Source: Mesaphorura yosii (Eukaryota; Arthropoda; Collembola; Poduromorpha; Tullbergiidae). Taken from it: a stretch of DNA of 64,000 bases. Of the stretch, positions 597 to 24,158 are shown piece by piece. Under the pieces are notes generated by a model. The model saw only the letters and a list, made by a program, of their open reading frames with translations, ran no database searches and was not told where the DNA came from. How positions within the stretch are numbered: position 1 is the stretch's first letter; the number at the start of each line of letters is the position of its first letter. The stretch spans positions 1 to 64,000 of the forward strand of contig WIXG01000268.1 in the NCBI GenBank assembly GCA_009869945.1, written 5' to 3'. The translations under genes were made by a program, and so were the position numbers.

Positions 597-603
597 TATA
601 AAT
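597..603 (+). promoter_or_regulatory. TATA box of the first VWA gene
   Basis: TATAAAT lies upstream of a likely first non-coding exon. That exon would start about 25-35 bases downstream and end at the donor AACTG|GTAAGT (intron from 756). The block just downstream (AGCTCG, then AAAGCGTTTTG at 622-632) recurs before the second VWA gene, which supports a real, duplicated promoter. Confidence 0.55.
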
Positions 604-869
604 TCAGGGAGCTCGACGCAGAAAGCGTTTTGTTATTCGCGAATCACTTTGGGGTCTATTGGTGGTTCCGCTCACGACCATCGACAAGGTTTGTGTTACA
701 GATTTTAGCGATACCAGTTTGTGGTTTATCAGCTGCTCGTTCCCAACTGTAACTGGTAAGTGGTAAGCTCGTTCAGTTCAGGTTAAGAAGATCATACTTT
801 TACTGATAGAGGAAGTATGACTGTTATTCTAATTATGAGAATTTTTGCAGAATCCAGCCACAACCCACA

Positions 870-1502
870 ATGAAGACTCTTATTGTCATCATCATGGATG
901 AATCCGGAAGTATGCAGAGCAAGAAGGGAGACGTGATTGGTGGCTTCAACGAATTCCTAAAAGAGCAAAAGGAGATCACCACCGACGTCGCGAATGCCAT
1001 ATTCATAAAGTTCAACACTACCGTGACCATTGTCAACGATTGCAAGCCGGTTGAGCAGGTGGCGTACCTGAATCAGTTAACCTTCAGGCCCGGAGGATGC
1101 ACCGCCCTTTACGATGCCATTTGGGAAGGAGTGCAGCTCGGGGAAAAGGTTGAGGCAGACGTGGATCGAGTCCTCTGCCTGATTATGACAGACGGCGAAG
1201 AGAATTCGTCACGCAAAATCACTGCGGTCGGCATCCGCGACCTGCTGAAGAAGAAGGAGGCCGATGGGAAGTGGACTTTTCTGTATATCGGCGAGAACCC
1301 GGAACGTTGGGCCAAAGAGACTGGAACGGCGGTCGGAAATGTGGCGCAGTTCAACCACATGATGCCACAAATGAGTTTCCAGTTGCAGCAGCAGGCTGTC
1401 AGGGCGTATCGGTATGATTCTGCAATCCAGCAGCAGTGCCTCACGGCCCAATTCATGCCTGGACCGGTGTCAGGGCCCGGAGCTGGGGACCCATCTCCAT
1501 AA
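870..1502 (+). CDS. Small von Willebrand A domain protein, copy 1
   Basis: A 210-residue soluble protein made almost entirely of one VWA domain. The metal-ion-dependent adhesion site (MIDAS) is intact: D-E-S-G-S at residues 10-14, the GGCTALYDAI loop with Thr78, and MTDGE with Asp108. There is no signal peptide or membrane segment, so it is probably intracellular. The frame opens almost directly with the first VWA strand (LIVIIMDESGSM), as in small free-standing VWA proteins of bacteria and phages. The coding region has no intron, but an intron (756-850, GTAAGT...TTTTTGCAG) appears to interrupt the 5' UTR just before the ATG. The C-terminal 45 residues are Gln/Pro/Gly-rich and unlike copy 2. 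The binding partner is unknown. An arthropod-specific VWA family cannot be excluded without a search. Confidence 0.8.
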   Translation: MKTLIVIIMDESGSMQSKKGDVIGGFNEFLKEQKEITTDVANAIFIKFNTTVTIVNDCKPVEQVAYLNQLTFRPGGCTALYDAIWEGVQLGEKVEADVDRVLCLIMTDGEENSSRKITAVGIRDLLKKKEADGKWTFLYIGENPERWAKETGTAVGNVAQFNHMMPQMSFQLQQQAVRAYRYDSAIQQQCLTAQFMPGPVSGPGAGDPSP

Positions 1503-1795
1503 ACCACCAGCGCCAGCTAATAATGTACTGGGCCAGACATTCCAACCTTGCCCACAAGAAGTATTGCGTTTTCTAAATGCTGTAGGCTGCAGGAGACGTG
1601 GTGGTTATGATGACCTTGATTAGTTAAAACGCATAATGCACAGTTTTTTCATCATAATTCGTGATTTTGTGTTTGTATTGTACGTGTGGTCTACACGCGG
1701 ATTGAACTTCTTCTGTAGCTTTATCTCTATTCACAGCCACAACATTCTTTTGTAACTTATGCTTTTGTATTCGTATATCGATACATCGATTAGAT

Positions 1796-1801
1796 AATAA
1801 A
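1796..1801 (+). terminator. Poly(A) signal for VWA copy 1
   Basis: AATAAA about 290 bases after the stop codon. It is the first canonical hexamer downstream. Confidence 0.5.
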
Positions 1802-2140
1802 ACAGCTCTCCATCGTTGTTCTGCTGCATGTTGTCGCAATATCCTGAGTTTTGTATAAGCCGCGGCTGGGCTGACTGGCTTCCGTGCTTCAGCACCCAAT
1901 GGGTGTATTGTCAACACGAGGCATAGGGATAAAGTGTCATTCAATAGAGGATTCATTCGATAGTGGTGAGTTGAAGGGCGATGCAATGGCGAGGCAATGA
2001 CTCATCACTCATCACCTACTGGTGACGGGTAATTCCCTTTAAAGCGTAGTTATCAGGTATTGGCTTACTTCAGCATCAAGTTTGATTTTCGCTGTAAACG
2101 GAACGGTAATGCTTGCTTGCTGCGTCATAGACGGCTGTCA

Positions 2141-2178
2141 AATAAATAAATTGAAGCTCGAAAGCGAAAAGCGTTTTG
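2141..2178 (+). promoter_or_regulatory. Core promoter of VWA copy 2
   Basis: An AT-rich TATA-like run (AATAAATAAA) is followed by AGCTCG and AAAAGCGTTTTG, in the same order and nearly the same spacing as before copy 1. A donor (ACAA|GTAAGT, intron from 2270) and an acceptor (CGAGCAG at 2357) frame an 88-nt 5'-UTR intron matching that of copy 1. Confidence 0.45.
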
Positions 2179-2371
2179 CACTGAAGACTCAACATAATAC
2201 TTAATTCCCGTCCTCCGCTGCGAATCGAACTCGAACCACACAACACTGAATTGGAACATTAAATTACAAGTAAGTTTGGAAAAACTCTTCAAAATACGTT
2301 TGATAAGTGTTCCCATCCATAAACGAGTAATTCATTCCTTCAATTACTGACGAGCAGAGTCCATCCTCACA

Positions 2372-3031
2372 ATGAAGAGCCTCATCGTAATTATCATGGA
2401 CGAGTCCGGAAGCATGGCTGACAAGAAAGCTGACGTCGTTGGTGGCTTCAACGAGTTTCTGAAGGAACAGAAAGAGCTCAAGGATGACACCGCCAACGCG
2501 ATCTTCATCAAATTCAATTCCACCATCACAATTGTCAACGAGTGCAAGCCAATTACGGAGGTCGCCGAGTTGAGATCGGATACATTCCGGCCGGGAGGCT
2601 CCACAGCTCTTTACGACGCGATTTGGGAGGGAGTGCAACTCGGAGAGAAGATCGAGCATGATGTGGACCGTGTTCTTTGCCTTATCATGACAGACGGAGA
2701 AGAAAATGCGTCGAGGAAGATAACTGCCGTCGGGATTGGCGACCTCATAAAGAAGAAAGAGAACACGGGCAAGTGGACTTTTCTGTATATCGGCGAGAAC
2801 CCGGAACGTTGGGCCAAAGAGACTGGAACATCGGCCGGGAATGTGGCGCAGTACGACCACAGTGCGCCAAGACAGAATTTTGAGATGCAACGAAGGGCTG
2901 TGACCCGGTTCCGACAGGAGAGAGAGACCCGGCAAGACCGGCTTTTGCTTCCTGAACCTGAGCCGGAAACACCAGCGCCTGCTGTACCCGCCAGAGCGCC
3001 GAATGATCCTCCACCACCGTACGCGCCTTAA
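2372..3031 (+). CDS. Small von Willebrand A domain protein, copy 2
   Basis: A tandem paralogue of the preceding gene, 219 residues and again intronless in the coding region. MIDAS residues D-E-S-G-S (10-14), the GGSTALYDAI loop and MTDGE are conserved. Most positions over the first ~165 residues match copy 1, with conservative changes. After that the proteins part: this one ends in a Pro/Glu-rich tail closing in PPPPYAP, which contains a PPxY motif (residues 214-217), the usual ligand of WW domains. Copy 1 lacks it. No signal peptide or TM segment is seen. The pair shares 5'-UTR intron position and promoter words, so the whole unit was duplicated, not just the coding sequence. The function is not known. 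Confidence 0.8.
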   Translation: MKSLIVIIMDESGSMADKKADVVGGFNEFLKEQKELKDDTANAIFIKFNSTITIVNECKPITEVAELRSDTFRPGGSTALYDAIWEGVQLGEKIEHDVDRVLCLIMTDGEENASRKITAVGIGDLIKKKENTGKWTFLYIGENPERWAKETGTSAGNVAQYDHSAPRQNFEMQRRAVTRFRQERETRQDRLLLPEPEPETPAPAVPARAPNDPPPPYAP

Positions 3032-3148
3032 GTGAATGCAAACAACAATGCCCATTATTATGAAATTGTGATTGATATCGCATTTTGGCCAATTGATAGT
3101 TTAACTAAAATCTAGCTCATATTGTAATTCATTAAGAGTTAATCTGAC

Positions 3149-3167
3149 AATAAAAGTCGTAAATAAA
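3149..3167 (+). terminator. Two poly(A) signals of VWA copy 2
   Basis: AATAAA at 3149-3154 and again at 3162-3167, about 120 bases after the stop codon. Confidence 0.6.
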
Positions 3168-3467: not shown

Positions 3468-4632
3468 CTATCGGAGAAAGTATTCTGGAGGCATTTTGAT
3501 GTTGAGGAAGGAGTACTCCGCACAGTCGATGTAGGACCGATTGCCCACGTTTGACGGGATTTGATTGAACTCAGAGTAGAACGCACGCAAACCAGTGGAC
3601 TCCAGACGCTCCAGCCACGCAGCGAACAGCGCCACCATGGCGGGCAGGGGCAGTTGAAACATGTGCACCTCCACCAGCAACTGCCCCCAAGGCAACCTCA
3701 TAGGGAAGTCGCTCAGAATGCTGAGCAGTGCTTCAAACTCCGCGCCTTCTACGTCCACCTTCAGAATGTCCACAAAACTCTCGTTCAGGAGGGCCATGTC
3801 GGTTCGCAGTGAATGGCGATCACCAGGGCGCCTGATGTTTGTGCTGGCCACTCCCAGTCCCGTCCTCTGCAGCGACACGCGGCCCGGAAACTCCCACACG
3901 AGATCAGCGGCCGGGCCTTCGGAGATGCTGATGGTATCGTCGAATAGGTGCACGATGCAATGCGATCTCTCTAGCACTTCCCTTTCGAACGAGACCTCAC
4001 TCCCAACCCCGTACGAGTACACTATGCAGGGTTGTCCCCGGCTCCGATTCGAGAGATGTGTGAAGCCGCAAACCCATTTTCCTACGTCACCTACCCGCCC
4101 CAAACGCTCCACGGGGTGAGGGCAGTGAAAGCCCGGTGCGAAGAGGTCCCAGATGACTGTCAACTCGTGCACGCCCCAAGGCTCCTTGAGGAAAGAAGAG
4201 CCTAGTCGTTTCAGCGCACGCACTTTTTTGGTTTTGGAGGCGCGCCATACGACTTCGGCTTCCGCGAGGAAGCCGCGCATCCTGGTTTTAGCATCACCCT
4301 CGTCCTTGTCGCCTCCTCCTCGAGGCGGGGGGCTTCTTGTACGCAACACTGCAAAAGTCAAAAGCGCGCATCAGTGCATCAGACCCTAGAATATGCTGTC
4401 GCTGCCTGCACTGCGTCCGCGGCGGCCAAACACTTATAGGATCGAGACCTGAGCTTTGATTGACCCCGCTGTAGGCCAGGAGCAGAAGCCACACACAAAT
4501 CACAGCCAGCAAGGGAAGGACGTGCCTAAGACTCATCCCTTGTCCAACGGACGACGGCCGACTGAGGTTGTTGGATTGGATTACTTTTTCTCTTTCTGCG
4601 AGTGCGTACTTCGAGTTTGACTGGAGAATCAT
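3468..4632 (-). CDS. METTL24-like methyltransferase-domain membrane protein
   Basis: Two exons: 4632-4449 and 4348-3468. The 100-nt intron (CAG|GT...TTTTGCAG) is phase 1 and joins the frames exactly. The product is 354 aa from the ATG at 4632, which has a good ACC-ATG-A context. An in-frame ATG at 4725 would add 31 residues and one at 4536 would remove 32. A single hydrophobic segment (HVLPLLAVICVWLLLLAYSG) near the N terminus with no cleavage site suggests a type II Golgi or secretory-pathway membrane protein. The lumenal part carries the METTL24-type methyltransferase features: GDVGKWVCGF, CIVYSYGVGSEVSFE (SAM-site-like) and DILKVDVEGAEFEALL. The family is annotated from its fold; the substrate is unknown. 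FkbM-type assignment is the main alternative. Confidence 0.72.
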
Positions 4633-23062: not shown

Positions 23063-24158
23063 ATGCATCTAAGGCCAGTGTCACACTTCCTCCGCTGCTG
23101 CGTCAGGAGCTCCTTCTTCGTCGCGCCTGCTCTCGCCCTCATTCTGCTGACGACTATCATGTACTACAGCTCCAATGGACAACTAATCTCCAGATCAAAC
23201 TGGTTATCTTTATCGACGCCCGAATTCAACATGAACGACCTGCTAGAAGGAACAGCAACCACAATCGTGCAAGACGACAACAGACTGGTTGGATACGTGG
23301 CGACGACTGGCGTCATTTTGCCACCATCTCCTTCAACTACGGCAGGCGCGGGCTACGATTTGAAAGACCCGGACAAGGATCCCAGCTTTGGGCAGTCGAA
23401 GGCCGTGCTCAAAATACTCAAGAATATGGTCAGTAAATGTTGATAATATTCGTATTGATTATTAGGATTGGCTTTTTCCTGGCATTGTACTACTGTACTG
23501 GCTCGTTATTTTTTTTTCACTACAGACTGGCGGTTTCTTCATCGAATGCGGTGCGTTGGATGGCGAGACTCGATCCAACACCCTGTACATGGAGAAGGAG
23601 CTTGGCTGGAATGGGCTGCTCGTGGAAGCCGACCCGTCCAACTTCCAAATGCTGCTGCAGAAGAGAAGAAGAGCGTACGCGGCAAACGTGTGCCTTGCAA
23701 CGAAACGCCATCCTCATGCGGTCATGTTTCGCCAGGCTTACAATGTTGGGAAGATCGTATCGGATGGCATTGACGATGGCAACTCAAAGCAAAAGCCAAA
23801 GCCAAAGCCAAAGCCAAAGTCTTCTTCGTCTGATGCCAAGGCCAACGTCAAACCCATTCGCGTCCAGTGCATTCCAGTTTACACTCTTCTGCTCGCGCTC
23901 AACGTGACGACGGTGGACTACTTCAGCCTAGACGTCGAAGGCAACGAATTCGACGTGCTCAAAACGATCCCGTTCGACAAGCTGCGGATTCGCGTCCTCA
24001 GCGTCGAGTACGTGCATGACAAGGTGCCGGGGGTGGCCATCATCGGATACATGGCGAGATACGGGTACAGAATGGAGACAGAAGTGCGCGACAAGTCTGG
24101 CATGGGCTGGGCCCATGATTACATATTTGTTCATGAGTCGATACCAAGAGATAATTAA
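23063..24158 (+). CDS. Star-like FkbM-domain type II membrane protein
   Basis: Two exons, 23063-23428 and 23526-24158, with a phase-0 intron (ATG|GTCAGT...CACTACAG); 332 aa. A short cytoplasmic N terminus is followed by one TM segment (SSFFVAPALALILLTTIMYYSS), about 75 linker residues, and an FkbM methyltransferase-like domain. The domain shows GGFFIECGALDGETRSNTLY, GWNGLLVEADPSNF and YFSLDVEGNEFDVLKTIPFDKL, the pattern of Drosophila Star and related arthropod proteins. Star acts in ER-to-Golgi trafficking of EGF-receptor ligands; whether this copy does so is inference, since arthropods carry many Star-like paralogues. A (KP)n-type insert near residues 210-220 comes from an AAAGCC microsatellite. 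Enzymatic activity is not established for the family. Confidence 0.8.
23792..23815 (+). repeat. AAAGCC microsatellite inside the Star-like gene
   Basis: Four exact AAAGCC units plus a partial one, translated as alternating Lys-Pro. The same kind of AAAGCC run is seen in non-coding DNA near 50610-50630. Confidence 0.85.

Follow-up and report, generated by a model that had tools for sequence, protein, structure and literature searches.

In the genome of the springtail Mesaphorura yosii (assembly GCA_009869945.1), contig WIXG01000268.1 carries two tandem genes, VWA1 (positions 870–1502) and VWA2 (2372–3031), which sequence comparisons place in a phage, bacterial, and archaeal family of free-standing von Willebrand factor type A (VWA) proteins, the PHROG 7371 type. 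The window is the whole stretch analyzed, 64,000 bp comprising positions 1 to 64,000 of this contig, and all features of the gene pair given below lie on its + strand. Lateral acquisition is the best reading of the sequences: the two small metal-binding proteins are of the phage/bacterial kind, and their genes probably entered the lineage through an ancient gene transfer and have been maintained by selection. The fuller proposal, that of an old tandem pair of PHROG 7371 type, laterally acquired and later domesticated, with a domain acting as a peptide-binding adaptor through its metal ion-dependent adhesion site (MIDAS), appears to us likely, if well short of assured.

Both reading frames run uninterrupted from ATG to stop, in line with an initial annotation of this locus that described the coding regions as intronless. 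Each encodes a single VWA domain with an intact MIDAS, followed in VWA1 (210 amino acids) by a tail past approximately residue 185 and in VWA2 (219 amino acids) by a proline-rich C-terminal tail. The same annotation had the domain starting almost at the initiator methionine with its MIDAS intact, and indeed the Pfam VWA match begins at residue 5 in both proteins, and residues D10, S12, S14, T78, and D108 are intact in both. The PF00092 scores (20.4 bits for VWA1 and 19.4 bits for VWA2) are under the curated cut-off of 23.8; despite this, the AlphaFold2 model of VWA1 (mean predicted local distance difference test score of 90.3, with lower certainty past residue 180) displays a fold and a MIDAS of the VWA type. 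The two copies are 74% identical across 188 amino acids, and the VWA1 protein, searched against the 93-Mb genome, recovered at least two places, namely, VWA1 and VWA2 themselves.

The two proteins match the phrog_7371 profile with E values of 1.5e-36 (VWA1, residues 2–189) and 3.2e-36 (VWA2, residues 3–184). Using VWA1 as the tblastn query, relatives were found in 162 of 50,697 phage records and 22 of 72,556 plasmid records, every one at less than 60% identity, and an alignment-based scan showed relatives to be encoded in 221 of 230 candidate viral stretches and in at least 575 of 594 candidate bacterial or archaeal stretches. Scans of viral contigs with the single protein VWA1 or VWA2 returned no relative, and the alignment-based scan alone succeeded. 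Together, these matches bear out the bacterial/phage family type to which the pair had initially been assigned. From the scans, the best 80 of the 221 viral relatives and the best 80 of the at least 575 bacterial/archaeal relatives were kept, all of them located by one peptide pattern.

A family profile built from 61 relatives, with the window copies left out, scores VWA1 at 155.6 bits and VWA2 at 160.6 bits, against at most 12.1 bits for the 13 native VWA places of the genome. Ten-fold hold-out scores of 136 relatives range from 141.5 to 273.5 bits (median, 236; 5th percentile, 200), and the hold-out version of the profile assigns 161.2 bits to VWA1, 164.0 bits to VWA2, and no more than 13.0 bits to the natives, from which we conclude that the pair is a divergent member of the family and clearly no native VWA. 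Consistently, when eight native VWA domains were scanned against PHROG, five gave some match (E up to 1) and none matched phrog_7371. Both copies retain 15 of the 17 positions that are invariant in all 61 relatives (D10, S14, M15, F48, T78, D82, T107, D108, G109, E111, N112, S114, W135, F137, and N143), as well as S12, which is found in 59 of the 61. Comparison of folds with viral proteins gives a 231-amino-acid protein without a name as the top match (TM-score, 0.82), with phage VWFA proteins at ranks 3 and 4. A PDB sequence search returned one row at chance level (E of 0.79), and NCBIfam gave only weak matches to a cobaltochelatase model (19.8 and 24.8 bits versus a cut-off of 779.45).

Both genes look domesticated, as judged from their host-like GC content at third codon positions (GC3), poly(A)-type signals, and matching predicted introns in the 5' untranslated region (UTR). 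The GC3 is 0.66 in VWA1 and 0.62 in VWA2, compared with 0.56 to 0.70 in six neighboring open reading frames (ORFs). One intron confined to the 5' UTR of each gene was part of the initial annotation, and as a prediction it holds, with good splice sites delimiting positions 756–850 in VWA1 (GTAAGT...TTGCAG) and 2270–2357 in VWA2 (GTAAGT...GAGCAG); the predicted introns stop 19 and 14 bases before the respective ATG. The + strand of the window contains 12 copies of the GTAAGT hexamer, corresponding to a chance of approximately 2% per 120 bp. A TATA-box-like TATAAA is located 5' of copy 1 (597–602), and no ATG is present within 597–755. Since splicing would remove the ATGs at 817 and 835 along with the VWA1 intron that contains them, the ATG at 870 would be the first start of a transcript from about position 597. 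Poly(A)-signal-like AATAAA sequences follow copy 1 (1796–1801) and copy 2 (3162–3167) and are, like the TATAAA, consensus matches only; AATAAA is also seen at 3149, and the first 3400 bases of the window contain six such places in all.

These features also bear on the origin of the contig end itself. Phage-type genes situated 0.9 to 3.0 kb from the left end of a contig could in principle derive from bacterial or phage contamination or from a chimeric contig end, and a mite assembly has been described that contained contaminant bacterial DNA with phage sequence (PMC12507336). We consider such an origin very improbable, given the GC3 match to neighboring ORFs, the predicted UTR introns, and the AATAAA signals, to which may be added that bacterial promoter-like sites (5 versus a shuffle mean of 3.8) and terminator-like sites (2 versus a mean of 2.3) are close to their shuffled numbers. 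Nor is there a close relative among the matches, as the phage and plasmid records stay below 60% identity and the best viral row and best prokaryotic-genome row kept reach 43% and 41%, respectively. The pair shares its 111,235-bp contig with an ORF for an insect-type cuticle protein (PF00379, 17459–19318), although its position at the left end means that linkage to native genes is on one side only.

Comparison of the two copies points to a long history as a pair. Over codons 1–160, synonymous divergence (dS) is 1.58 and nonsynonymous divergence (dN) is 0.13, and over all aligned codons the values are 1.73 and 0.21; with dS of approximately 1.6 to 1.7 and a dN/dS of approximately 0.1, we take the duplication to be old and the domain to be under purifying selection. 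Residues 161–200 have evolved faster, with a dN of 0.56 and 0.57 in two 20-codon segments. Amid this saturated divergence, a 59-bp tract of VWA1 (1269–1327) is identical to its counterpart in VWA2 (2771–2829), a length that 20,000 permutations of the 186 columns of aligned codons never attained (longest, 53 bp), so that gene conversion offers the simplest reading. The equal position of the predicted UTR intron in both copies suggests that the intron was present before the duplication. VWA2 ends in PPPPYAP, in which PPPPY (3008–3022) contains a PPxY, a WW-domain-binding-type motif, which was not found in VWA1 or in the open frames of 169 relatives (0/169). PPxY motifs bind WW domains, and the VWA2 tail thus suggests WW-domain partners in the animal.

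In phylogenetic trees of the family, the pair consistently groups with viral sequences as long as the tree is unrooted. A quick tree of 138 rows joins it with ten viral rows (Shimodaira-Hasegawa-like approximate likelihood ratio test support of 95), and a more careful tree of 75 rows, for which eight rows, long or unusual in composition, were taken out of the 138 and the others thinned, joins it with eight viral rows, among them Sinorhizobium phage Phosso and Agrobacterium phage Atu_ph07 (support of 97/95, the bootstrap being not fully settled). The initial annotation named a position within a bacterial/phage clade as the support to look for; the unrooted grouping goes part of the way toward it, and the support for that grouping is lost once native VWAs are added, so that a nested position in a rooted donor clade is at most possible. 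The claim of lateral transfer made there is partly supported, by the family type, the non-native profile scores, and the domesticated look.

Several observations weigh against a transfer, and some of them also lend substance to an alternative in which the pair represents an old eukaryotic VWA lineage (or an early metazoan or protist-shared one). Such a lineage would have descended vertically, with loss in other groups or a failure to notice it there, and would be the sister group of the prokaryotic family instead of an offshoot. The stem of the pair is long (2.0 to 2.2 changes per column), identity to any relative peaks at the 43% of the viral row, and the pair scores under the 5th percentile of the 136 held-out relatives (200 bits), whose minimum is 141.5. 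Moreover, A142 and D145 of the GANQD motif, both invariant in all 61 relatives, are replaced by E142 and E145 in both copies, which marks VWA1 and VWA2 as divergent members, although the PHROG is defined by its profile and not by these two residues. The sampling of relatives is biased, because the best rows were selected via a single peptide pattern, and the eukaryotic comparison consists of the host genome alone. With six native VWAs included (quick tree of 81 rows), the grouping of the pair with viral rows loses its starred support. If the pair and the natives are kept on the same side, the best tree found exceeds that of the free search by 30.7 log units in likelihood and is not rejected (approximately unbiased test P value of 0.847). 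Similar VWAs may also exist in other eukaryotes, a possible example being a rotifer gene with a best hit in Tetrahymena (PMC12220480). In contrast, the native VWAs of this very genome score no more than 13.0 bits on the family profile versus 161 to 164 for the pair, and without the natives the pair returns to a subset of viral rows (97/95). Four of the six native end branches measure 4.0 to 7.2 changes per column, which makes the rooting prone to long-branch artifact; as such branches may join falsely, we regard the native-rooted tree as weak evidence either way. Overall, vertical descent strikes us as unlikely, yet as an alternative to be taken seriously.

A further consideration concerns the donor. 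The VWA gene of the bdelloid rotifer was flagged as acquired by horizontal gene transfer (HGT) with a ciliate as best hit (PMC12220480). It provides a precedent for such calls on animal VWA genes and counts against a direct phage or bacterial source, as it makes protist relatives or a protist donor possible. An acquisition via a protist or a large DNA virus of arthropods, which partly overlaps the explanation we favor, would fit with this precedent, with the common fold of giant-virus VWA proteins, and with the VWA gene of a Daphnia iridovirus (PMC5873915). However, the giant-virus proteins rank below the phage proteins in the fold comparison, with TM-scores of at most 0.69 and 11 to 20% identity (best 50 of 721), and the iridovirus protein has another architecture, VIT plus VWA (PMC5873915). 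We would thus call this route unlikely.

For the function of the family we turn to the genes around its prokaryotic and viral members. Among 90 immediate neighbor genes of relatives (of 127 listed), 12 encode a Macro domain, compared with 1 of 71 control ORFs located further off at the same loci (Fisher P of 0.0044, with loci that are not independent). ADP_ribosyl_GH is present in 3 of the 90 adjoining genes, and a control count for it is not among the 25 of 55 families listed. In Xanthomonas phage XacN1, an annotated PARP gene lies directly upstream of the relative, and on Selenomonas plasmid pSRC2 a macro-domain gene lies close to the relative, which is immediately followed by an annotated AAA-family ATPase. 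The latter makes a chaperone-type partnership possible, while no AAA family is seen among the 25 of 62 neighbor families listed. In 11 bacterial relatives, an ORF of approximately 300 to 380 amino acids directly precedes the VWA gene and is perhaps the source of the Macro-domain matches. A published survey assigns to vWA proteins next to ADP-ribose-processing systems the role of chaperones that bind peptides in a Mg2+-dependent manner (PMC9503650), and the same role has been proposed for vWA proteins with MoxR ATPases (PMC7159879); for the PHROG 7371-type family itself, the literature passages searched yielded no published function. By analogy, Macro adjacency above controls suggests the role of a Mg2+-dependent peptide-binding adaptor, which would hold an extended peptide via the MIDAS metal. 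On the other side of the balance, the ADP-ribose link is drawn from prokaryotic neighbors that are not independent, and a function for the PPxY is deduced from a motif.

Under the favored explanation, lateral acquisition followed by domestication, an ancestor of the host springtail would have acquired the gene laterally. In prokaryotes, members of the family often adjoin ADP-ribose-processing genes (Macro, ADP-ribosylglycohydrolase, and, in one phage, PARP). A promoter and a 5' UTR intron would have been gained after the transfer, and tandem duplication would have followed, with the tails diverging. Each protein may be a soluble adaptor that binds peptides in dependence on Mg2+, with an acidic residue of the client peptide completing the MIDAS metal. 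In the animal, the domain would have been retained and the tails recruited to new partners, plausibly WW-domain proteins in the case of copy 2 via its PPxY. A bolder version, which we offer as speculation with little expectation that it is right in full, sees a phage ADP-ribose-associated peptide-binding VWA adaptor that springtails domesticated and now maintain as a module of two genes coupled by gene conversion. Clients bound at the MIDAS of VWA2 would be connected by its newly evolved PPxY tail with ubiquitin ligases of the Nedd4 type, for instance, in stress or antimicrobial defense.

Lateral genes abound in at least one springtail, Folsomia candida, for which 809 horizontally acquired genes are described (PMC5490193). 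The main text of that paper contains none of the terms “Willebrand,” “VWA,” and “phage,” the main text of a metazoan HGT compendium (PMC13342648) mentions neither Willebrand nor VWA, and our literature searches found no account of a transfer of a PHROG 7371-type VWA into arthropods. The locus is therefore a probable further case of a known kind of event, HGT in springtails, here in the form of an old and well-domesticated pair. If the transfer is true, a nonenzymatic phage-type protein joins the lateral genes of basal hexapods, and a UTR intron, a duplication, gene conversion, and a new tail motif become readable at one locus. In addition, the role of a widespread phage VWA family would become testable in an animal.

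Other observations were made in the same window and genome. ORFs for methyltransferases of the FkbM/Methyltransf_22 type are located right beside the VWA pair (3468–4280, – strand) and at 23466–24158 (+ strand). Contig C420 (positions 5001–32400) harbors a beta-lactam-type cluster with a 3156-amino-acid frame containing three nonribosomal peptide synthetase (NRPS) condensation domains, ABC-transporter-like ORFs, and three DIOX_N places, a piece at one of which matches isopenicillin N synthase (E of 2.2e-28). With NCBIfam, the two dioxygenase pieces tried received no name, and the start of the NRPS was recognized by general NRPS/adenylation models only, so that the label “ACVS” for this frame is drawn from its three condensation domains and its neighbors. 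Reports of ACVS and IPNS concern several Collembola and a plectid nematode and none of the other hexapods analyzed to date (PMC10531068), and many springtails are without them (PMC8138834). The best DIOX_N match of the genome (C759, 14869–15240) falls in an uninterrupted 335-amino-acid ORF of the 2-oxoglutarate-dioxygenase type, which could be a lateral gene or a bacterial contaminant, and the matches at C651 (13145–13489) and C1065 (1532–1822), with one internal stop each, are possibly pseudogenes or frames across introns. NRPS condensation domains beyond the C420 cluster are seen at C394 (29898–31250) and C1089 (6083–6622), the latter with an internal stop. Finally, searches of the genome recovered seven odorant-binding-protein places over the cut-off (one with internal stops) and three globin places, and no insect odorant receptor over the cut-off. 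Together with the C420 cluster, these results point to a springtail as the probable host and away from a branchiopod. A COX1 search gave no match, and a tardigrade telomere repeat had 0 matches.

Among known systems, the small phage proteins of PHROG 7371, such as ORF413 of Xanthomonas phage XacN1 and AUZ95446.1 of Agrobacterium phage Atu_ph07, and the bacterial/archaeal proteins of approximately 200 amino acids annotated as “vWA domain-containing protein” share with the springtail pair the MIDAS, the GGFN and TDGxEN motifs, and a similar length. The pair differs from them by its identity of no more than 43%, E142/E145, a eukaryotic-looking gene structure, divergent tails, and the PPxY of copy 2. 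The VWA/I domains of animals (integrin I, ANTXR/CMG2, and ITIH) have the fold and the MIDAS in common with the pair, with TM-scores of 0.50 to 0.65 in the PDB (best 50 matches listed), but they show only 11 to 19% identity to VWA1 among those 50 matches, and the pair is under the PF00092 cut-off. Integrin I, ANTXR/CMG2, and ITIH proteins are secreted or membrane bound. For the vWA co-chaperones of MoxR-vWA pairs and of NAD/ADP-ribose conflict systems, a MIDAS vWA domain has likewise been proposed to serve as a Mg2+-dependent chaperone for peptides, in part beside ADP-ribose enzymes (PMC7159879; PMC9503650); unlike MoxR-vWA pairs, the PHROG 7371-type family is here without an established MoxR partner, and the animal genes are without an operon partner. 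The lateral genes of Folsomia candida, including the ACVS/IPNS beta-lactam genes, offer a parallel at the level of the genome, being likewise foreign-type genes linked to native ones (PMC5490193).

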